Positions 6,530 to 59,176 of a DNA stretch of 64,000 nt are shown piece by piece. Position numbers and translations under genes: made by a program. Positions within the stretch are counted from its first letter, which is position 1, and the number at the start of each line of letters is the position of its first letter. The stretch spans positions 1-64,000 of the IMG/VR virus record IMGVR_UViG_3300017917_002441, one strand, 5' to 3'. The notes under the pieces are model-generated. The model saw only the letters and a program-made list of their open reading frames with translations. It was not told the origin of the DNA and did no database searches. Source of the DNA: a virus.

Positions 6530-7138
6530 ATGAAACCATTTGCACAATACCTCGCTGAAAGCGAACGTACCTATGATTATCGGATCAAAATCTGCGGTAA
6601 ACCACCAGCAGACACTGTTCGATTATTGAAACAACGTCTTGATCAATTTGATCCTGTACGCATGGGAGATGAAAAGTCTACCCCGGTACAACCAATCCCC
6701 ACTGACTTCCCTAACTTCAAAAATGAATCAGTTACCATGCTTGATGTAAGCTTTCGCTATCCAGCGATTGAGCCACAAATCAAGCAACTGTTTCAGTTGT
6801 TAGGTGGCGACCCTAATCGTTTAGTAATGACCACTCGTGATTACAATGACAGCATGGCCGCTGAGTACAAGAAGATTGAAGATGAAAACCAGGATCTTGT
6901 TGCTGACACTGACTATCCTGCACCTGATGCAGAACAAAAAGGTCTCAAGAAAGACTACAGTGTAGAGGCTCATGATCACGTTGTGCTAAAAAATCAATAT
7001 CGTTCCGACTTCACAGTGGCAGGTGGCAAGACCCGTCCAGCAGTGACAACAAATGATTTCAAAACTGGTAACACCAGTCCGATGACAAAAATTAACCGTC
7101 CGGCAAAGCCAGCGACTGGTGCCAAACCAAGAGGATAA
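6530..7138 (+). CDS. Virion-associated candidate with capsid-targeting-like N-terminus
   Basis: 202 residues, no named function. The first ten residues, MKPFAQYLAE followed by Ser, closely match the T4 capsid-targeting sequence (IPIII begins MKTYQEFIAE, cut after Glu by the prohead protease). Residues ~15-100 form an alpha/beta unit (YDYRIKICGKPPADTVRLLK, VTMLDVSFRYPAIEPQIKQL); the rest is charged and low in order, ending in a basic PAKPATGAKPRG tail. I know related sequences from cyanophages and pelagic phages, where they are unassigned. A virion-internal protein is the best inference. Confidence 0.6.
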   Translation: MKPFAQYLAESERTYDYRIKICGKPPADTVRLLKQRLDQFDPVRMGDEKSTPVQPIPTDFPNFKNESVTMLDVSFRYPAIEPQIKQLFQLLGGDPNRLVMTTRDYNDSMAAEYKKIEDENQDLVADTDYPAPDAEQKGLKKDYSVEAHDHVVLKNQYRSDFTVAGGKTRPAVTTNDFKTGNTSPMTKINRPAKPATGAKPRG

Positions 7139-9156: not shown

Positions 9157-9774
9157 ATGAAAAGCTTTCTTGATTATCTAGCCGAAGCAAACTATGCCGC
9201 ACAAGTTCCGGTAGTGGGCGACGACTTTGCTATCAACATTCGTGAAGAATGTTTGTTAGAAACGTATGTTTGCGAAGAAGCCATTGACGGTGTTGTGTTG
9301 TTTGCTGACGACCGCATGATGGAGATTCTTGAGAGCTATGCTTTATTAGAAACTGCACCTCACGAAACTGTGATTCTTGAAGGCATGACCAAACAGGCCA
9401 TGCACGACGATGCTGACCGCATGAGTCTTGAGCAGTTTGTTGACAAGTACGGTGACGAGGAATGGGTTCATGAGTTTTGGCACAACATCAATGATGACAT
9501 TGACGAAGCCAAGTATCAAGGACGCGAAGTTCCGCTGGGTAAGCCCATGAAGGGCGATGTTAAAAAATCCAAAGTATATGTACGTGGTCCCAAGGGCAAT
9601 GTAGTTAAGGTAAACTTTGGTCACGGTGGCACCAGTGCTAAACGTGCTGGTCAACAGACCATGAAGATCAAGAAGTCAAACCCAGCAAGACGTAAAAGTT
9701 TTAGAGCAAGACACAACTGTGATAATCCGGGCCCAAGACACAAGGCTCGCTATTGGAGCTGCCGTGCTTGGTAA
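9157..9774 (+). CDS. Candidate capsid-internal protein with basic Cys-rich tail
   Basis: 205 residues, one base after the previous stop. It begins MKSFLDYLAE followed by Ala, a close match to the T4 capsid-targeting sequence and protease site. The first half is acidic and helical with several ILE and LLE runs. The second half becomes very basic: VPLGKPMKGDVKKSKVYV, VVKVNFGHGG, then a C-terminal block of Arg, His and two Cys ending YWSCRAW. That tail type recurs in marine T4-like phage proteins, where function is unknown; it could bind nucleic acid. Virion packaging is inferred from tag and context. Confidence 0.6.
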   Translation: MKSFLDYLAEANYAAQVPVVGDDFAINIREECLLETYVCEEAIDGVVLFADDRMMEILESYALLETAPHETVILEGMTKQAMHDDADRMSLEQFVDKYGDEEWVHEFWHNINDDIDEAKYQGREVPLGKPMKGDVKKSKVYVRGPKGNVVKVNFGHGGTSAKRAGQQTMKIKKSNPARRKSFRARHNCDNPGPRHKARYWSCRAW

Positions 9775-10269: not shown

Positions 10270-10641
10270 ATGCGAGCTTGCGAGTTTATCACCGAAGCCC
10301 GTGAAGGTAAATTAAGCAAACGCCTGCAGGCAGCTACTCGCGGCCTTAATACATTCTCTGATGGTGAAAAGTGGAATACTGATTACACTCTTAACCGTGT
10401 GATGATGGCAGTAGCTTGCACAGACGGATCATTTGTTCCTGACATTGACTGGAAAAGCTGGATAGGCAAATCCAAGTCTGCACATCCTTATACCAAAGAA
10501 GAGCAAGAAATGCTAAAAATGGCTTACAAGGCTGCTAATGCCAAGTGGGATGATACAAACCACGGCGACATGGACAGCGAAGAACATCCAGCAGTGAACA
10601 AAGAAAGCCCGGTCAAAGCATTCAAAGGATATCCAAGATGA
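10270..10641 (+). CDS. Tagged virion candidate, FKGYPR tail, type A
   Basis: 123 residues. The N-terminus MRACEFITE followed by Ala matches the T4 capsid-targeting and protease site pattern. The C-terminus ESPVKAFKGYPR is almost the same as that of the next gene, although their middles are unrelated. The core (residues ~20-100) is helical with Trp residues (DIDWKSWIGKSKSAHPYTKEE). The stop overlaps the next start (ATGA). Function unknown; two shared ends around different cores suggest common sorting or anchoring. Confidence 0.62.
   Translation: MRACEFITEAREGKLSKRLQAATRGLNTFSDGEKWNTDYTLNRVMMAVACTDGSFVPDIDWKSWIGKSKSAHPYTKEEQEMLKMAYKAANAKWDDTNHGDMDSEEHPAVNKESPVKAFKGYPR
10606..10641 (+). repeat. 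C-terminal tail repeat, copy 1
   Basis: 36 bases encoding SPVKAFKGYPR and the stop; near-identical to 10989-11024. The identity includes the ATGA stop-start overlap. Confidence 0.75.
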
Positions 10642-11024
10642 GAGCTCGAGATTTTATCAAAGAAGAGAAAAATCTTCCAGTTGAAATCTCCGCGCCGCTA
10701 AGGCAGACGTATGTTGTGCCAGGACTCAGTGCCGCTGATCCTTACAACAATTATAGATTTGGTGTAGCAATTGCTAGAGCTAGAAGTGATTATCGTAAAA
10801 ACGACGTCAATCCACACATGCCAAACTGGAGCCCAGAAACAGCGTTTGGTGAACACGGTGTAGTTGTAGGTATGAACGCAGGTATTCAGCCTGTGATTGA
10901 TGCGGCATTGAAAATGACTGGCACCAAGGGCGGTAAAAGAATAGTATCAACTCCAGACAGCGATGAGCCTGAATTTGTTGAAAAGAAAAGCCCAGTAAAA
11001 GGCTTCAAAGGATATCCAAGATGA
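10638..11024 (+). CDS. Tagged virion candidate, FKGYPR tail, type B
   Basis: 128 residues. It begins MRARDFIKE followed by Glu, similar to the preceding protein's tag, and ends KKSPVKGFKGYPR. The core has PLRQTYVVPGLSAADPYNNYRFGVAIARAR and a FGEHGVVVGM strand, a pattern I recall from cyanophage and pelagiphage proteins of unknown function. It overlaps both neighbours by four bases (ATGA), so the three genes are likely co-translated. A virion location is inferred from tags and context. Confidence 0.62.
   Translation: MRARDFIKEEKNLPVEISAPLRQTYVVPGLSAADPYNNYRFGVAIARARSDYRKNDVNPHMPNWSPETAFGEHGVVVGMNAGIQPVIDAALKMTGTKGGKRIVSTPDSDEPEFVEKKSPVKGFKGYPR
10989..11024 (+). repeat. C-terminal tail repeat, copy 2
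   Basis: 36 bases encoding SPVKGFKGYPR and the stop, near-identical to 10606-10641. Confidence 0.75.
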
Positions 11025-44938: not shown

Positions 44939-46006
44939 ATGTATTCAACCACTGCGTACTTATACCAACAAATAACCCGGGTACTTTTGATAGATACCAG
45001 TGGAGCCTACTTTATTGCGAGGTACGACCCTGTGTATGCTAAAACCCTAACTGTTAACAAAGGCGTGGATAACGTTCTACTCTTTGAATTTATCAATCAA
45101 GACCAAAAGCCTGTTAATATCACAGGTTCAAGTTTTGTGTTCCGCTTGCTGAGCCAAGACGGTACTGAACTGTTGCTGGAAAAAGCCATGGAGACTTTGG
45201 CACCCAGCGTAGGTCGTGTAAAAGTTGTGCTGAACACCACAGACACAATTAACATCACAGCACAACCTGCCAGCTACAGCATACAACGCACATCTGGAAA
45301 CTATGTGCAAGCAGTGTATGTTGATGCCAATGCTGGTGCTAGAGCAGACTGCAATATTGTAGACAGCATCATGCCTGATTTTGTGCCCAGCGCAGAACTA
45401 ACTGTACCTGACATTTATGGCAAAGCACAGCAACTACAGCCTGGACCCACAAACTGGCCGGACTGGGCACTGCAACCACAACCTCAAAATACTACGCAAC
45501 TAACTGAGTTCTACTCTAGCTATATTGATTCAAGTCAACAAAATATCACAACTATCAAAATGGACATGGATCACTACACTGGTACTGTGAAGTTCCAAGC
45601 CGCAGATGACTATCAAAGCGTGTGGTACGATGTCACTGCCAGCTATGAGTTTTTGGATGAAACCAACACACAGTATTTCAATATTGTTGGGTATTATCCG
45701 CTGATGAGAGCCGCGTTTAACAATCAATTTGGTTGGGGTGCGCAAGGCACACTCAACGTCACTGATGGGGTAGTCACAAGTATCACTGTCACCAACGGTG
45801 GCCAAGGTTATTTGGCGCCACCCCGTGTGCAAATTTTGGGCAACGGTGCAGGCTGCGTAGCCGAAGCTGTGATACAAAACGGTGTTGTTGTGGGCATCAC
45901 AGTGCTGGAAGGTGGTTCTGGTTATACGCCAATCCAGTACCAAAGTACCAATTATGGTACTGCACTGATTACACCTGGTACAATTACCAACCTCCAATAT
46001 CGTTGA
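44939..46006 (+). CDS. Virion structural protein, baseplate/fibre type
   Basis: 355 residues. Residues ~40-120 (NVLLFEFINQDQKPVNITGSSFVFRLLSQDGTELL) look like the Ig-like N-terminal domain of baseplate upper proteins. The C-terminal ~90 residues hold two repeats of a glycine-rich beta motif (VTNGGQGYLAPPRVQILGNGAG and VLEGGSGYTPIQYQ), common in phage fibres. A late-type box upstream supports virion expression. Probably a receptor-near adhesin or fibre connector. Confidence 0.66.
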   Translation: MYSTTAYLYQQITRVLLIDTSGAYFIARYDPVYAKTLTVNKGVDNVLLFEFINQDQKPVNITGSSFVFRLLSQDGTELLLEKAMETLAPSVGRVKVVLNTTDTINITAQPASYSIQRTSGNYVQAVYVDANAGARADCNIVDSIMPDFVPSAELTVPDIYGKAQQLQPGPTNWPDWALQPQPQNTTQLTEFYSSYIDSSQQNITTIKMDMDHYTGTVKFQAADDYQSVWYDVTASYEFLDETNTQYFNIVGYYPLMRAAFNNQFGWGAQGTLNVTDGVVTSITVTNGGQGYLAPPRVQILGNGAGCVAEAVIQNGVVVGITVLEGGSGYTPIQYQSTNYGTALITPGTITNLQYR

Positions 46007-47024: not shown

Positions 47025-48402
47025 TGTACAGCGATTGTTTCTAGAAATGATGCTGGAGGACGCACAGAGTTTTGTGCGAGTATCCAACATCTACAATGCC
47101 AGCAATTTTGATAAAAATCTGCGCCCGGCCGCAGAGTTTATTCGCGAACACAGCGACAAATTTAAAACCATGCCTGACAGACTGCAGATTGAAGCAGCCA
47201 CAGGTATAAAGTTACAGGCAGTGCCAGACTTGAACGAAGGCCACTATGAGTGGTTCATGCAAGAGTTTGAAGCATTTACCAAGCGCCAAGAACTGGAACG
47301 TGCTATTCTCAAAGCCGCTGACTTGCTGGAAAAGGGCGAGTTTGATCCCGTGGAAAAACTCATAAAGGATGCTGTACAAATTTCATTGACCAAGGACATG
47401 GGCACAGACTTTTGGATGGATCCCGAAGGCATGTTTGCCAAGTACTTTGATGCAGGTGGACAAGTTTCAACTGGTTGGCCACAACTGGACAAACTGTTGT
47501 ATGGTGGGTTCAGTCGCGGCGAACTCAACATCTTTGCAGGTGGATCAGGATCAGGTAAATCCTTGGTGATGATGAACATTGCGCTAAACTGGGTGCAACA
47601 AGGATTGAATGGTGTGTACATCACACTAGAACTTAGTGAAGAGCTCACAGGCTTGCGTACAGCGGCCATGCTGACCAACATGAGCACAAAAGATATCCGC
47701 AAAGACAAAGAAACAGCGGCGTTAAAAGTCAAGTTAGTGGGCAAGAAAGCCGGTAGCTATCAAGTCAAAGCACTGCCAGCACAGAGTAACATCAATGACA
47801 TTCGTGCATACTTGAAAGAATATCAAATCAAGAGTGGCAAGAAGGTAGACTTCATGATGATTGACTACTTAGACTTGTTGATGCCTGTCAGCGCAAAAGT
47901 CAGCCCCAATGACTTATTTGTCAAAGACAAGTATGTGTCAGAAGAACTTCGTAACCTAGCCAAGGAGCTGGGTATATTGATGGTAACTGCATCGCAGTTG
48001 AACCGTAGTGCAGTTGAGGAGATTGAGTTTGATCACTCGCATATTTCAGGTGGTATTTCAAAGATTAATACTGCGGACAACGTATTTGGTATTTTTACTA
48101 GCCGTGCTATGCGTGAGCGTGGCAAGTATCAAATTCAGTGTATGAAAAGTCGTAGTTCCACAGGTGTGGGACAAAAGATTGACTTGGAGTACAACATTGA
48201 AACCATGCGTATCACAGACGAGGGTGGCGATGAGGGAGGCTCGGGTGGATTTACCAAGAAGCCCAGTATTCTTGAGTCAATTAAAACACAGAGTCGTGTC
48301 GTGGAATCGGCGCCCGATGAAGACGCCGATGTTGGTAAAGTCACTGCCGATGTTCAAAGTGCCAAGCTCAAACAGCTACTTGGCAAAATCAAAACCAATT
48401 AA
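47002..48402 (+). CDS. 41: Replicative helicase (gp41-like, DnaB family)
   Basis: 466 residues (T4 gp41 is 475), starting at TTG with GAGGAAGC upstream. The N-terminal ~130 residues are the helical collar; the C-terminal RecA-like motor has Walker A AGGSGSGKS (around residue 180), VYITLELSEE (H1a), VDFMMIDYLDLL (Walker B) and ILMVTASQLNRSA (H3, arginine-sensor region). The C-terminus is acidic and disordered (DEGGDEGGSGG) and ends in a Lys-rich helix, as in proteins that bind loader and gp32. Overlaps gp61 by 23 bases; ends tail to tail with a fibre gene (4-base overlap). Confidence 0.95.
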   Translation: MLKEYGTDVQRLFLEMMLEDAQSFVRVSNIYNASNFDKNLRPAAEFIREHSDKFKTMPDRLQIEAATGIKLQAVPDLNEGHYEWFMQEFEAFTKRQELERAILKAADLLEKGEFDPVEKLIKDAVQISLTKDMGTDFWMDPEGMFAKYFDAGGQVSTGWPQLDKLLYGGFSRGELNIFAGGSGSGKSLVMMNIALNWVQQGLNGVYITLELSEELTGLRTAAMLTNMSTKDIRKDKETAALKVKLVGKKAGSYQVKALPAQSNINDIRAYLKEYQIKSGKKVDFMMIDYLDLLMPVSAKVSPNDLFVKDKYVSEELRNLAKELGILMVTASQLNRSAVEEIEFDHSHISGGISKINTADNVFGIFTSRAMRERGKYQIQCMKSRSSTGVGQKIDLEYNIETMRITDEGGDEGGSGGFTKKPSILESIKTQSRVVESAPDEDADVGKVTADVQSAKLKQLLGKIKTN

Positions 48403-50021
48403 GTAGTTGAACCCTTGATCACAGCAAAGCGAAGCACAAGAGCTTCGCTGAGTGAACCAGCTGTGGCATTGCGCACATAAATTGTAGCAGATCCAGCACC
48501 ACAGCTGGCAGTAAATGTATAAGCACCAACTGTGCCACCGCTTACATGGTTAATAACCAAGACGTCAGTGGCTGCAATGGTACTGTTGGTCAGTGTAAAA
48601 TTCACAATACCACCGCCGCCCAGGGCAGTGTTTTGCATGGTAATCTGACCCGAAGGCTTGTTAATAACCACTGTGTCAGTTTTGTTACCAGATTGTGATC
48701 CAGTGCCACCTGCACCTGCACCATAACCCATGGTACCGCCATCAGTTAGTATCACACCACTGCCGCCGCTGACCAAGATATTGCCGGCAGCTACATTGCC
48801 TGGGAATGTAGCTACAGTAGATGACACAGTCATGCTCAAGGTCTTGGCATTGGAGCCTGTGGCTGACGTAAACAGTTTGATGTTTGTACCCTGCGCCGAG
48901 TCAGTAAAGTTTTCAGTAGCTACTGCTTCAATTGCACAGCCAGCGCCGCCAGGAGCACCAAAGTCTGTGCCATCCCAGCCCACAAATCCAAATCTTGCCA
49001 GCACATCGCCACTTTGGATTGCTGTGGGCGCGGCCGCTGTTCCACGTGCGGCACGAGCAGTAAAAGTAGGAATAGCACCAGTACCAAATGCATCATTGAC
49101 AATACGGCTTGAAGCACCATCATTGCCGGTGATGTGAATCATGCAACCTGTGTTGGTAAGAGGTTGGTACGTAGTTGACCCTTGGATACTGAATGCACCG
49201 GCTGTATTGGCTGCCACAGTGGGAGTTTTAATTTGTAAAAATCCAGTATCTAACACCTGGAAACTAACGTTACCTGTGCTAGTGTAAGTAGAAAGATTAC
49301 CACCCACGTTGAGGTTACCACTGATACCGGTACCGCCAGCCACTGTCAGCGCACCAGTTGTTTTGCTGGTACTGGCTGTGGTGTTTAAGATGTTTACTGG
49401 GCTGTCAAAAACGTCTCGTGGACGAGTAAGTTCTTGCACTGAAATTTGTGTGCCGCCATCCGCAGTAGTAAATTCATAGATGTAAACGTTGACATAAGGA
49501 GCTGTTTGGCTAAAAGTAATGGTGTTAGATACACCAGCTGTGCCCGGACTTACTCCTTGCAATCCTTCTACGCCCACACGCACACTGGCAGGCAGTGTCA
49601 ATGTATGCGCTGTATTGGTACACACAAACGCAAAACGCAAAACGCCAACTTGCCCATCTGAAGGCCAATTGCTAAAGCTCAAGCTAACTGATCCAGAACT
49701 GGCTGGAATAGCTTGGAACATGCCTGCACTGAAATCAAGGTTGATTGATCCTGAAGTTTGTGCTAAAGTTACTTCTGTAAAGCTGTTGTTCTTGATCTGT
49801 AGATTGCTCAATATGTTGTAGTTCATATTGTTGTCGAGCACAGTACCGTCTAGTGCGGCTTTGAACACACCTTTGCTCTGTAGCTCGTTGATTTCATCAG
49901 CGGCGTACTGGAAATTGGTTTTAGTATTGGTAAAATTGTCGCGGAATCCCTGGGTATTGTTGGGCACTCCGGCAACTGGATAATTACCATCTATGTTGTT
50001 TGGGTTTATCTGACTGGTCAT
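48399..50021 (-). CDS. Tail fibre/virion protein, reverse strand
   Basis: 540 residues. The N-terminal ~60 (SQINPNNIDGNYPVAGVPNNTQGFRDNFTNTKTNFQYAADEI) is a virion-anchoring segment I recall from marine phage fibres. The rest is Gly/Thr/Ser/Ala-rich beta structure with fibre-like units (TGALTVAGGTGISGNLNVGGNLST). A mid-section FTARAARGTAAAPTAIQSGDVLARFGFVGWDGT resembles segments next to fibre chaperone domains. Late-type box and AAGGACG ribosome site upstream. It is the only large virion gene on the reverse strand, which may mark an inversion or a separately acquired host-range module. Confidence 0.74.
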   Translation of the reverse strand: MTSQINPNNIDGNYPVAGVPNNTQGFRDNFTNTKTNFQYAADEINELQSKGVFKAALDGTVLDNNMNYNILSNLQIKNNSFTEVTLAQTSGSINLDFSAGMFQAIPASSGSVSLSFSNWPSDGQVGVLRFAFVCTNTAHTLTLPASVRVGVEGLQGVSPGTAGVSNTITFSQTAPYVNVYIYEFTTADGGTQISVQELTRPRDVFDSPVNILNTTASTSKTTGALTVAGGTGISGNLNVGGNLSTYTSTGNVSFQVLDTGFLQIKTPTVAANTAGAFSIQGSTTYQPLTNTGCMIHITGNDGASSRIVNDAFGTGAIPTFTARAARGTAAAPTAIQSGDVLARFGFVGWDGTDFGAPGGAGCAIEAVATENFTDSAQGTNIKLFTSATGSNAKTLSMTVSSTVATFPGNVAAGNILVSGGSGVILTDGGTMGYGAGAGGTGSQSGNKTDTVVINKPSGQITMQNTALGGGGIVNFTLTNSTIAATDVLVINHVSGGTVGAYTFTASCGAGSATIYVRNATAGSLSEALVLRFAVIKGSTT

Positions 50022-50094: not shown

Positions 50095-50343
50095 ATGCAA
50101 AAGAAAACTCGTAGCTTACTAGAAGAATTGGACTCGATGTATGTCGAGCGTGATCGCCGTTTGTTGATTGAAAATCGTGCAAATACGCTGATACAAAACG
50201 CTATTCGACTGCTGGAAGAGATTGATCAAGAATACACTCCTGAGCAAGCTGAAAATCTAACTCGCAAATTGTTGAATGCAATACGCAATAGGGAACCTGA
50301 AAAATTCGTTAGATCCGTCAGGAGAACTCATGCAGATTCGTGA
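50095..50343 (+). CDS. Small helical virion-assembly-type protein
   Basis: 82 residues, highly charged and helical: KKTRSLLEELDSMYVERDRRLLIENRANTLIQNAIRLLEEIDQEY. I recall similar proteins in cyanophages, close to head assembly genes, where they are unassigned. A prohead-core or scaffold-like role is possible. Overlaps the next gene by 14 bases, and that gene's ribosome site (CAGGAG) lies within it. Confidence 0.62.
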   Translation: MQKKTRSLLEELDSMYVERDRRLLIENRANTLIQNAIRLLEEIDQEYTPEQAENLTRKLLNAIRNREPEKFVRSVRRTHADS

Positions 50344-51016
50344 AATAGTTACTGAAGCCGCTCCAGGCTCGGCTGGTGCTCAAGCTGGTGTTTTTGGCAA
50401 GGCTTTTGCCGGCGCATTGGGACAAAAGATTGCCCCGGGTGCTAACCTTGGTGGACCACAAGCTGGTGCAGTGGCTCCTGGACAACGTGCTCAAGCCGCA
50501 CAGCAAATCAACCAAGCCGCTGTTGCTACACTAGCCAACAAAGGACAGCAAGCTTGGGTGCAGACTCTAAAGAAAATGATAGCTCAGAGTGATAATCCTG
50601 CACTGAGCCCAGACAAATTAGATATCAATGACACCAAAGAAAGTCTTGATGACATGGTACAAACTATGCTGGGCTTTGACCCAGCTGAGATCACCAGAAT
50701 GACTTCACCTGAAGCCAAAGCAGCCGGTGAAAAACTCAACAACGGCATTGCCATGGTGCTCAAAGCTAGTTCTACCCCACAAACCAATGACACAGCAATG
50801 AAGGCAGCCTGGGCTACGTTAGCTCTGGGTATTGCTGAAGCGCAAAATGCCAAATCATTCTTTGGTGGGGGAGCCACCAAAGGACCGGGTAAATTACCCG
50901 AAGTAACAGTGGGAGCGGATGGTAAACTATTGTATGATGGCAAACCTTTCAATGCCAGCGATCCACAACATGTGACTATGTCGCAAATTTTAGCTAAACA
51001 ATCGGCAGCAAAATGA
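50330..51016 (+). CDS. Tagged virion candidate, Ala/Gly-rich
   Basis: 228 residues from ATG 50330 (CAGGAGAACTC upstream). The N-terminus MQIREIVTE followed by AAPG resembles the capsid-targeting/protease-site tags of other proteins here, with Val in place of Leu/Ile. Low-complexity Ala/Gly/Gln follows, then a helical unit (VQTLKKMIAQSDNPALSPDKLDI, TKESLDDMVQTMLGFDPAEI) and a Gly/Lys segment ending in DPQHVTMSQILAK. Probably enclosed in the head. Overlaps the next gene by four bases. Confidence 0.58.
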   Translation: MQIREIVTEAAPGSAGAQAGVFGKAFAGALGQKIAPGANLGGPQAGAVAPGQRAQAAQQINQAAVATLANKGQQAWVQTLKKMIAQSDNPALSPDKLDINDTKESLDDMVQTMLGFDPAEITRMTSPEAKAAGEKLNNGIAMVLKASSTPQTNDTAMKAAWATLALGIAEAQNAKSFFGGGATKGPGKLPEVTVGADGKLLYDGKPFNASDPQHVTMSQILAKQSAAK

Positions 51017-52887
51017 TAACAAAACTACTTGAAGGCGGAAACGTTTTTAAAGACGCCAACGGCAACCCGTTGACCGGCCGTATTAACCAAAGCGATGTTG
51101 CACAAACAGTGCAATGGATTGAAACACTCACAGGTTTGCAATTTCCCAAAGAGCGTTGGTTAGGATCAACTGGGCGCAAGCCTACATCAGGCGACTTAGA
51201 TCTAGCAGTGGATCTTAGTGAAATATCAAAAGATCAGTTGGCAGCCAAACTAACTCAGTGGGTTCAAAGTCACGGTGAAGATCCACGTGCTTGGGTTAAA
51301 AAGGGCGGCGAAGTACACTTACGCACTCCCATCAATGGTAAACCAGAAAACGGATTTGTACAAACAGACTTTATGTTTTTTCCTAATTTGGATTGGGGTA
51401 CATTTTTCTATGCTGGTGGTGAAGATTCTGCATACAAGGGCATGGTACGCAACGTATTAATGTCTAGTTTGGCCAAACATCAAGGCCTAAAGATTGGTGC
51501 CAACGGTGTTATCAGCCGAGCCACAAATCAAGTTGTAAGCATGGACCCAGACTGGGCCGCCCAAGCAGTATTGGGCAAAGGCCATGACCGTAACAGTTTA
51601 AAAAATGTTGAAAGCATTTATCAAGCCTTGACCAAGGATCGCGAACGTGATGCCAAATTGGCAGACTTTAGAGACTACCTGCAACGTGAAGGCTTGCAAG
51701 AGCCCGGTGCTGTGACAGAAAGTGATGTGGGATTCTTGGCTCGACTGCGTGACAGAATTGTCAATCAAGGCATGAGCCCGCTGATCGAACACGAAGTTGT
51801 TACCGAAGCTGAAGTAGCTGGTGTAGGCGGCAGAGCCAAGGGCATTGAACACTTGGAAGATCTTGTGTTTAGACACGGTAGCCGCGGTGTTGAACAAGCT
51901 CTGGGCATTGTGGCGCACCTTGCTGAGCAACCCAGCAGTGCTACAGTAAAGTGGGACGGAAAACCTGCTGTGGTGTTTGGTCGCAAGCCTGCCACAGGTG
52001 AGTTTGTGCTCACAGACGGTTCGGGCTTTGAAGCCAAGGGCTACGACGGACTTGCAACGTCACCAGAAATGATGGCGCAGATACAAAACATGCGTGGTGC
52101 CAACAGACAAGAACTCATTAACATTTACGCTACACTGTTCCCGCTGTTGGAAGCGGCTGTACCACAAAACTTCCGTGGATATGTCAAGGGCGATTTGCTG
52201 TATATGAGCAAACCTGAGTTGGTAGCTGGTAACTATGTATTCCAACCCAACACAGTGGAATATCGTATTCCAGCCAAATCTAGCCTAGGCAAACGCATTG
52301 GCAACAGCGACATCGGCCTAGCTATGCACTCAATGTACGGTGATGTTGGCGAACCACGCCAGCCCCTGAGCCGTGTGACATTTAACGAAGTTCCAGGGCT
52401 ATTGTTGCTAGAACCTATTGCTGGAAAAGAAATACAACTCAATCAACAGTTGATTAAAGAAATTCGTAGTTTGATGCGTAGCAAAGGCAAAGCCATTGAT
52501 ATCTTGTTTAACCCAGCAGAGCTACGAGCACAGCAGATCACAGACTTGGCCAAGCTCTGTGTTGATTATATCAATGCTAGAATTCCCACTGGTAACTTTG
52601 ATAACTTGTTGGGCGGGTTTGGTGAGTGGCTACAGCAACGAGTTACTCCAAGAAAGTTTGCTAATATTGTTGAGTACCTAAAGAGTCCCAGTTCAAATAC
52701 CGAAGGCATGGCTGCGGCGTTTACACTGTTCTTGTTGTTGCACGATCTCAAGATGGACTTGCTACAACAGCTGGATCAGCAAAGCCCTGGTAATGAAGGC
52801 TGGGTCATGGCTACTCCTGCAGGTTACGCCAAAGCAGTGAATCGCTTTGATTTCACTGCTAGAAACCGAGCCAGAAACAACTCCTAA
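51013..52887 (+). CDS. Nucleotidyltransferase / ligase-like (DUF6267-type) fusion
   Basis: 624 residues. Residues 1-~230: a pol-beta-type nucleotidyltransferase with GS (51-52), DLD (61-63) and VQTDFMFF (Asp119). Residues ~266-530: a segment I recognise as DUF6267-like, with GIEHLEDLVFRHGSRGVEQAL, KWDGKPAV (313-320, like motif I K-x-D-G of ATP-dependent ligases) and GYVKGDLLY (389-397, like motif III). Between them lies IEHEVVTE/AEVAG (cut would be after Glu265), like the prohead-protease tag found at the start of stand-alone homologues. The N-terminus MITKLLE/GG could be another such site. RNA or DNA end repair is possible. Confidence 0.62.
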   Translation: MITKLLEGGNVFKDANGNPLTGRINQSDVAQTVQWIETLTGLQFPKERWLGSTGRKPTSGDLDLAVDLSEISKDQLAAKLTQWVQSHGEDPRAWVKKGGEVHLRTPINGKPENGFVQTDFMFFPNLDWGTFFYAGGEDSAYKGMVRNVLMSSLAKHQGLKIGANGVISRATNQVVSMDPDWAAQAVLGKGHDRNSLKNVESIYQALTKDRERDAKLADFRDYLQREGLQEPGAVTESDVGFLARLRDRIVNQGMSPLIEHEVVTEAEVAGVGGRAKGIEHLEDLVFRHGSRGVEQALGIVAHLAEQPSSATVKWDGKPAVVFGRKPATGEFVLTDGSGFEAKGYDGLATSPEMMAQIQNMRGANRQELINIYATLFPLLEAAVPQNFRGYVKGDLLYMSKPELVAGNYVFQPNTVEYRIPAKSSLGKRIGNSDIGLAMHSMYGDVGEPRQPLSRVTFNEVPGLLLLEPIAGKEIQLNQQLIKEIRSLMRSKGKAIDILFNPAELRAQQITDLAKLCVDYINARIPTGNFDNLLGGFGEWLQQRVTPRKFANIVEYLKSPSSNTEGMAAAFTLFLLLHDLKMDLLQQLDQQSPGNEGWVMATPAGYAKAVNRFDFTARNRARNNS

Positions 52888-57361: not shown

Positions 57362-59176
57362 GTGGCAATTGTACAAGTATCGAGAATAACACAACGTAAA
57401 GGTCTAGAAGTAGACTTACCACAACCGCTAGCGGGTGCAGAACTGGGCTGGGCAGTTGACCAACGCAGACTGTTTATTGGTAACGGCTCACTAGAAGAAG
57501 GAGCCCCAGCAGTGGGCAACACCGAAATTCTAACAGAATTCAGTGACCTTCTTGCTTACTCCACTGCTTACACTTACAAAGGCGAAGCCGCTGGTTATAC
57601 AGTGCAAACTGGCCCCACAGCCGGTGACCCCATTAGTCAAAGCATTCAAGCACGACTAGACAGCTATGCCATTGTATCAGAGTTTGGAGCACAGGGCGAC
57701 GGTGTGACAGACGACACTGAAGCCATTAACCGTGCATTCAACCAGCTGTATTGTGTACAAACCAACATTCAGGTTCGCCGTAGTTTGTTCTTCCCAGCCG
57801 GGGTGTATGTTATCAGTAACACACTGTTGATCCCATCTTATGCCAAACTGTATGGCGAAGGTGCTGATCACACTATCATACTTTTCCAAGTACAGAATTG
57901 GGCCGCTAATACTGCGTATGCCGAAGGTGTGTTGGTTAAAAACACAGACCCAGCAACATCAATTGTAACATATTATCGTGCAGTGGCACCTGTGCCAGCA
58001 ACTGGCATTGCACTCACTGACGTGGCATATTGGGATCCAACTAGCTTGCCCAACTATGTGTTTCAAACTGCTGACAGTCAACAACAAACCGGCGCCAACA
58101 TTGGCGTCAACGGTGCTATTGCACCACGCAACATTGAAGTGTCTGGAATCACATTCCAGACCATGGAATATGGTGATGGTGCATTGGTGGCACACAACAT
58201 AGCATTGATTGAAAAGTCTCGTCAGTGCTACTTTGACAGTGTAAACTTTATTGGCCCACTAACAACCACAGATCTTGACACCACAGTTGAAGATTTAACT
58301 GGTGTGAATTTCATAAGTTCGCCCGCTAGTATCTGTACACAGATTACATTTGACAAATGCCGCTTTGCTGGCATGACTTATGCGTTTAACACTGACAACT
58401 TAGTCAAAGGCATCACAGTCAGCAATGGTTGGTTTGATACATTGTACCAAGGTGTAGTTCTAGGCGACGCCACACCAGTAGACGGTGGCCCCACAGGCTT
58501 CCGTATTGTTCACAATGTGTTTGATAATATCTATGCCGAAGGTATTGTGTTTGACAATTGCAGACTCAATGCATCTGGTTACAACACATTCTACGACGTG
58601 GGCAATCACTTCAACGGTGTTGCTACTCCGGCAGCCCCAATTATTTCTATCAATGCTGATGAGAACGCCAGCATTGGTGACATGTTTGCTAGAACCACAG
58701 CACAGACTCAGCTGGGCACCGGATGGCCAAGAATTAGAATTTTTAATTCTACTACATCTACTATCCCAACCAGTATAGGAATTGACAGTGCAGATAAGCT
58801 ACAATTAGGTTCATATGTAAGAACCAGTGGCAAGCAACAAGAAATCCTTGATGGCTTTACCCAGGAACCTATTTTTACAGTCAACACTAACCTAAGTTTA
58901 CAAAACGGTGGATTCCAAGCATTTAAAATGGATTATACTATTTCAAGACTCACTGCTGGCAGTCGTGCATATCGAACAGGTACACTGACAGTTGTTGCCG
59001 GGGGCGATGACAGTGCTGGCGACGGCATTGTCTACACCGACGATTATACTGAAAACGAACAAACAGATGTTGTATTGCAAGCAACTGAAAGTGGTAATGT
59101 GGTAACCGTCAGCTACTCAGCGGCTACTACCACCTATGACGGATCAATCTACTACAGCGTAACACACTTGGCTTGA
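57362..59176 (+). CDS. Tailspike with pectate-lyase-like beta-helix
   Basis: 604 residues, GTG start with AAGGA 9-13 bases upstream. Residues 1-~60 (VSRITQRKGLEVDLPQPLAGAELGWAVDQRRLFIGNG, split by strands) form a virion-attachment domain common to phage fibres. At ~residue 100, VSEFGAQGDGVTDDTEAINRAFNQL is the signature entry into a right-handed beta-helix; FFPAGVYVISNTLLIPSYAKLYGEG and later coil repeats follow. Such spikes bind and often cleave surface polysaccharide. Active-site residues cannot be picked from sequence alone. Confidence 0.85.
   Translation: MAIVQVSRITQRKGLEVDLPQPLAGAELGWAVDQRRLFIGNGSLEEGAPAVGNTEILTEFSDLLAYSTAYTYKGEAAGYTVQTGPTAGDPISQSIQARLDSYAIVSEFGAQGDGVTDDTEAINRAFNQLYCVQTNIQVRRSLFFPAGVYVISNTLLIPSYAKLYGEGADHTIILFQVQNWAANTAYAEGVLVKNTDPATSIVTYYRAVAPVPATGIALTDVAYWDPTSLPNYVFQTADSQQQTGANIGVNGAIAPRNIEVSGITFQTMEYGDGALVAHNIALIEKSRQCYFDSVNFIGPLTTTDLDTTVEDLTGVNFISSPASICTQITFDKCRFAGMTYAFNTDNLVKGITVSNGWFDTLYQGVVLGDATPVDGGPTGFRIVHNVFDNIYAEGIVFDNCRLNASGYNTFYDVGNHFNGVATPAAPIISINADENASIGDMFARTTAQTQLGTGWPRIRIFNSTTSTIPTSIGIDSADKLQLGSYVRTSGKQQEILDGFTQEPIFTVNTNLSLQNGGFQAFKMDYTISRLTAGSRAYRTGTLTVVAGGDDSAGDGIVYTDDYTENEQTDVVLQATESGNVVTVSYSAATTTYDGSIYYSVTHLA

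Follow-up and report, generated by a model that had tools for sequence, protein, structure and literature searches.

The window analysed here is a stretch of 64,000 nt from an incomplete IMG/VR virus record of 149,073 bases (G000), whose first gene is a tail sheath gene. It contains a 624-aa open reading frame (ORF) that is a fusion of two modules, as in the original prediction: an N-terminal nucleotidyltransferase module (NT) and a C-terminal DUF6267 module (Table 1). Full-length homologues in IMG/VR, of which 84 unique ones were aligned, are 68-76% identical. None of the annotated phage records covered 80% of the fusion protein, and no isolated phage with the fusion was present in the phage collection searched. 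The fusion ORF overlaps the upstream gene by 4 bases, and counterparts of this tagged gene in relatives are also tagged (MQIHEITRKQIAE/A in L309 and MQIHELTKLTE/A in L312; a slash marks a predicted cut). The 82-aa phrog_11854 protein has counterparts in L126, L310 and L312, and primase- and helicase-like ORFs also lie upstream of the fusion. Large ORFs of tail-fibre-like or repetitive virion type (57362-59176, 44939-46006 and 48399-50021) are found around the replication and head-payload genes. Elsewhere in the window, starts resembling the capsid-targeting tag (CTS) of T4 mark candidate packaged proteins at 6530-7138 (MKPFAQYLAE/S), 9157-9774 (MKSFLDYLAE/A), 10270-10641 (MRACEFITE/A) and 10638-11024 (MRARDFIKE/E).

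Table 1. Features of the fusion gene and its upstream neighbours (window coordinates).
Feature	Position	Strand	Basis or remark
82-aa protein, phrog_11854 virion structural protein (head and packaging)	50095..50343	+	conserved upstream neighbour
Upstream gene, product tag MQIREIVTE/AAPGS	50330..51016	+	start inferred inside ORF 50276-51016
Fusion ORF, 624 aa: leader, polymerase-X-like NT, linker/tag, DUF6267 ligase-like module	51013..52887	+	84 unique full-length homologues in IMG/VR
Leader MITKLLE7, predicted capsid-targeting/cleavage tag	51013..51033	+	predicted cut after E7, leaving GGNVF...
NT module, aa 8-253	51034..51771	+	AF2 model; Foldseek PDB best 50 all DNA polymerase lambda/beta/mu, probability 1.00
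G51S52...D61-L-D63, nucleotide-binding GS and first two catalytic aspartates (predicted)	51163..51201	+	G51, D61 and D63 invariant
D119, third catalytic aspartate (predicted; QTDFMF)	51367..51369	+	invariant in the 40-row NT alignment (A8)
Linker M254-SPLIE259-HEVVTE265	51772..51807	+	predicted cuts after E259 and/or E265; 247-269 disordered
DUF6267 module, aa 278-618, ligase-like covalent nucleotidyltransferase (predicted), helical insert aa 478-590	51844..52866	+	PF19782 E = 2.8e-32
Ligase motif I, K313WDG316, predicted nucleotidyl-lysine	51949..51960	+	K, D and G invariant in 41 C-half sequences
Ligase motif III, G393DLL	52189..52200	+	D394 invariant, G393 over 90% (41 C-halves)
Ligase motifs IV (E595GWV) and V (K607AVNR)	52795..52845	+	over 90% conserved (41 C-halves)

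An AF2 model of the full fusion, built from a 66-row alignment, had a mean pLDDT of 91.1, with only residues 1-3 and 247-269 below 50. The N-terminal half had been predicted to carry the GS...DLD...D pattern of pol-beta nucleotidyltransferases. Indeed, G51S52...D61LD63 is present, and model and alignment together give NT the palm fold and the GS...DxD...D triad of the DNA polymerase X family. The test set for the original prediction, whether either half has a nucleotidyltransferase fold, left it standing, as the N-terminal half is polymerase-X-like in the model. The best 50 Foldseek matches in the PDB had E values of about 1e-3; because polymerase X entries are very numerous there, we call NT polymerase-X-like and not a close polymerase X. 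The full fusion model also weakly matched giant-virus polymerase X proteins among predicted viral structures. GS, D61, D63 and D119 are conserved into jumbo phages, whose relatives are included in the 40-row alignment, and position 52 is T in part of the family. N-half sequence profiles gave chance matches only against the PDB and Pfam, the pol-beta palm model PF14792 had no match at E ≤ 10 or in a Pfam scan of 40 NT members, and no Pfam or PHROG model detects the family. RlaP was rejected as the identity of NT, since there was no PF10127 match and Atu_ph07 carries a separate true RlaP. NT is predicted to be a DNA-polymerase-X-like nucleotidyltransferase. It was found in 14 annotated phage records (the jumbo phages Phosso, Atu_ph07 and the PA5oct group) and at 80 further loci in an N-half profile search, and a search of cellular genomes from about 85,000 species turned up almost nothing (1 MAG contig).

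In the C-terminal half, KWDGKPAV and GYVKGDLLY had been read as ligase-like motifs I and III. Both hold (K313WDG and G393DLLY), and motifs IV and V were found in addition; motifs I (KxDG), III, IV and V of the ligase superfamily all occur in order, with D in place of the usual E in motif III. The PF19782 profile score for aa 278-618 was 112.9 bits against a gathering value of 27. The motif IV-V end was profile-aligned to EGVV...KVVDK of a jumbo-phage ligase-like family (P = 0.0011), and the C-half sequence profile gave chance matches only against the PDB. In a separate AF2 model of aa 266-624 (pLDDT 93.9, pTM 0.89), the 18 best PDB matches were all DNA, RNA or tRNA ligases and were weak (E ≥ 0.011, probability ≤ 0.82, TM about 0.2). 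Among predicted viral structures, the full fusion model matched a PA5oct ligase-like protein (E = 5.8e-6); its match to an Atu_ph07 protein annotated as an RNA ligase was weak. By motifs and by model, the DUF6267 half appears to resemble ligases, statistically weakly. DUF6267 alone occurs in 467 phage records, nearly all of them cyanophages.

The chain starts with a short leader ending in L/I-x-E, like a T4-type CTS (MITKLLE/GG). The first 10 residues have a mean pLDDT of 56, and P3 of the [LIV]xE/GGN leader ahead of NT in fusion homologues is L in 77, I in 3 and V in 2. Residues 247-269 form one disordered interior segment of the model, and the proposed cut site lies inside it. For this site, VVTE/AEVAG at the module junction, it had been noted that the tag of the upstream product has the same VTE/A, and both sequences are as described (VVTE265/AEVAG and MQIREIVTE/AAPG). 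VTE265/A has V, not L or I, at P3, and the stricter L/I-x-E site LIE259/H lies in the same linker. The motif [IL]xE[AGS] was present in the linkers of 72/82 homologues, which are not phylogenetically independent, and elsewhere in the same proteins it matched 14 times in 44,737 positions; its frequency in the linker is above chance. When linkers more than 60% alike were removed, [LI]xE[AGSND] was found in 10/10 non-redundant NT-DUF6267 linkers. It is retained while linker length and sequence vary; P3, P1 and P1' are kept and P2 is variable (Y, A, S, Q, L, V or T). The NT family itself ends at about residue 252, and almost every close fusion has Met at position 254, which leads us to read the linker, on this comparison, as the probable relic of a former second gene's start codon and CTS. 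Across G000, N-terminal L/I-x-E tags were found in 8/169 genes versus 3.9% of internal windows. As this genome-wide result is not decisive, we claim tag enrichment for this fusion family only.

The two modules also occur as separate genes. At the 80 distant NT loci, DUF6267 followed NT directly at 46, nearby at 9 and as a fusion at 12, with a different ligase-like gene at 2 and NT alone at 11. In Phosso, Atu_ph07 and PA5oct, NT and a separate ligase-like gene are side by side or close. In metagenomic phages with adjacent NT and DUF6267 genes, the DUF6267 protein usually starts with a T4-like CTS (e.g. MRAFEFLTE/A, MRFHQFNKPLLLE/A and MALLFEFIDTLVVE/E). The original prediction had stand-alone DUF6267 proteins tagged in this way; this was true of the metagenomic proteins (10/12 by a strict and 12/12 by a relaxed pattern), DLP6 and Melnitz-3, but not of the cyanophages P-TIM40 and S-PM2. 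The leader is likewise absent from the NT proteins of PA5oct, Phosso and Atu_ph07 and, together with the untagged cyanophage DUF6267, this means that the CTS is not required in all relatives.

Module order was found to vary, and a third module, the HxGH nucleotidylyltransferase, can be included: the orders were DUF6267-NT (L180:6771-8666), HxGH-NT-DUF6267 (L194:7344-9788) and NT-DUF6267-HxGH (L167:3817-6006). Nearly every module start in these permuted fusions is preceded by an [LIV]-x-E site, as in L194 (LITE/GGNVF and MITE/AAEARIQH), L180 (LTE/GGNVF) and further junctions (LFE/GMRIQH, LKE/ALEARIQH and VKE/AVKVTKIGYYPGSF). The DUF6267-HxGH junction of S-PM2 has no L/I-x-E site. In that phage, a frameshift splits one DUF6267-HxGH protein into p141 and p142 (L226:3492-5271); p141 is the N-terminal half of DUF6267, and the 'cytidyltransferase' p142 starts with its C-terminal half. 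The NT-DUF6267 fusion requires 3 changes in the tree but only 1 is forced by starred branches, and repeated independent fusion appears likely on this topology. The fusion probably arose when two neighbouring genes, both with a T4-type CTS ending in [LI]-x-E, became joined end to end. The idea of a protease site at the junction is strongly supported by this comparative anatomy, i.e. the linker statistics, the permuted fusions and the tagged stand-alone modules.

Other genes with similar starts were observed near NT. In L144, L150, L151, L156 and L159, a HAD-type protein (DMDGVLADF) with an MRAxEL-like start is encoded directly or one gene upstream of NT. The HAD gene and the several genes with an MRA-EF-E start that come after it look like a series of payload genes targeted to the head, with no DUF6267 among them. 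A separate array of about a dozen small ORFs (L138:1-7000; G005 70-77 kb) encodes proteins of 80-115 aa with a common start context that end in F-LRW or F-LKWS, and the start of one (L138:5487-5834) resembles the mature N-terminus of the gp23 capsid protein.

CTS leaders are sufficient for loading foreign proteins, and T4 gp21 cleaves after L/I-X-E (PMC9026906). The 331-kb contig G008 encodes a 68% fusion homologue, a gp23 capsid protein (E = 1.2e-96) and a gp21-type prohead protease (Peptidase_S77, E = 7.8e-23). Searches for gp23 and gp21 had no match in the window's own incomplete record, and in the first eight records Peptidase_S77 and gp23 searches gave no protease and two partial capsid matches. 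The stand-alone NT relative of PA5oct is annotated as a structural protein from ESI-MS/MS of virions, and its ligase-like neighbour is not reported from virions. The HxGH partner T4-GC190 was detected by mass spectrometry in virions of the cyanophage S-SM1 (PMC3037559), and in S-PM2 T4-GC190 adjoins DUF6267 (T4-GC 71). Association of the fusion with virions is supported indirectly, through these relatives.

We consider it probable that the fusion is a head polyprotein with a CTS before each enzyme, which is cut in the prohead and delivers repair-type enzymes with the genome. The CTS would direct the chain into the core of the prohead, where a gp21-type prohead protease would cleave it behind E7 and again behind E259, E265 or both; the products would be two enzymes, one polymerase-X-like nucleotidyltransferase and one member of the ligase superfamily. 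Both would remain with the packaged DNA and be ejected into the host, where NT may fill gaps or damaged ends or add nucleotides to them, and the DUF6267 enzyme may seal the break before the phage can make its own enzymes. The same phage encodes a separate ordinary RNA_ligase-family protein (458-aa frame; G000:69008-69553, outside the window) and has no RlaP on the contig, suggesting that the packaged pair acts in the first minutes of infection. The proposal draws directly on the model-based folds, the conserved catalytic residues, the sites, the split and permuted forms and the protease and capsid genes of a relative; from these, we infer cleavage, packaging of the fusion, catalytic activity and substrate.

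With respect to substrate, the structural matches of NT are DNA polymerases and the ligase side may point to DNA and RNA alike. In an RNA version of the packaged polyprotein, the pair would mend RNA, such as tRNA, that host anti-phage nucleases have cleaved, in the manner of the RlaP and RNA ligase systems of jumbo phages. This is a sub-case of the reading above, with which its probability overlaps, and in our view its chances fall somewhat short of even. In L142 and Atu_ph07 the ligase partner is a stand-alone protein with a weak match to Pfam RNA_ligase, RNA ligases are among the structural matches of the C-terminal half, and RlaP Pol-beta nucleotidyltransferases are predicted to restore nucleotides ahead of RNA ligation (PMC7824862). 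However, NT is not RlaP, its structural matches are DNA polymerases X and not tRNA enzymes, and the phage has its separate RNA ligase.

Alternatively, the halves might work joined, as one bifunctional gap-filling and sealing enzyme with an incidental E-A site in a flexible linker. NT and DUF6267 are neighbours or fused at 67/80 distant NT loci and are therefore functionally linked, yet [LI]xE[AGSND] is kept in linkers that otherwise differ, module order varies and the same site precedes stand-alone modules, all of which make a permanently joined enzyme unlikely. We regard it as less likely still that these are ordinary cytosolic infection enzymes with coincidental L/I-x-E sites, nothing being packaged. 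Primase- and helicase-like genes do adjoin the fusion gene and the virion data concern relatives and partners, not the fusion; against this stand the linker statistics (72/82 and 10/10), the tagged neighbours, and the mass-spectrometric evidence that virions contain an NT relative and the HxGH partner. Least probable is internal translation at Met254 in place of proteolysis. ATG is found at position 254 in 79/81 close homologues with AAGGC before it, but the 1 nt between AAGG and ATG is a shorter spacing than a usual Shine-Dalgarno site has; Met254 is replaced by Tyr in L001/L013 and L309/L310, and ATG254 is better read as a relic start codon.

The preferred reading, a packaged polyprotein, resembles several known systems in part. 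Like the T4 internal head proteins IPI-III and Alt, which have a CTS and are matured by gp21, the fusion has a short N-terminal leader ending in L/I-x-E, a gp21-type protease and gp23 (encoded with a fusion relative) and presumed ejection with DNA. In contrast to these proteins, it combines two (or three) enzymes per chain, each with its own tag and in variable order, and its packaging is predicted. Polymerase X and ligase pairs, such as the repair pair of ASFV, similarly place a small polymerase X beside a divergent ligase. We know of no detectable sequence similarity between the ASFV-type pair and the fusion, which belongs to a phage of bacteria and is one chain. Polyvalent proteins are multidomain and predicted to be injected, some have Pol-beta nucleotidyltransferases, and the authors compare them with polyproteins (Iyer et al. 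2017, PMC5512222); they are described as released by embedded peptidase domains (PMC5512222). The fusion, in contrast, has no embedded peptidase or other hub domain in a Pfam scan, which gives DUF6267 only, and would probably be cleaved by the protease that matures the head. RlaP and RNA ligase modules (PMC7824862) likewise set a Pol-beta-fold nucleotidyltransferase beside a ligase-superfamily enzyme, but NT has no PF10127 match, its partner is the divergent DUF6267 and the fusion is tagged for the head. The cyanomyovirus proteins T4-GC 71 and T4-GC190 share the DUF6267 family, with HxGH as the adjacent or fused partner; unlike the fusion, P-TIM40 and S-PM2 have no NT beside DUF6267 and no tag on it.

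There is precedent for CTS leaders, for gp21 processing and for injected proteins with several domains. A literature search with few subscription journals within reach found no paper naming DUF6267 and no phage head polyprotein of this kind; as far as our searches reach, what is new is a permutable polyprotein of enzymes punctuated by CTS tags, NT as a family, and the reading of DUF6267 as a ligase. DUF6267 gains a testable function, and NT is defined here as a family that Pfam and PHROG models had left undetected. Our proposal is that packaged enzymes are synthesized as a single chain and then parted by the proteolysis that matures the head. A wider reading, on which we are evenly balanced, is that CTS tags act as interchangeable punctuation in T4-type phages: NT, DUF6267 and HxGH would be joined in varying order and enter the head together at a fixed ratio, and the prohead protease would then separate them in a picornavirus-like manner, so that a DNA/RNA repair kit is delivered at infection. 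If this is true, searches for interdomain L/I-x-E sites could reveal more internal head proteins, and several proteins could be loaded into T4 heads at a fixed ratio as CTS-punctuated chains. Together, these results suggest that a phage may package a set of repair enzymes as a single chain, to be cut apart inside the virus particle.
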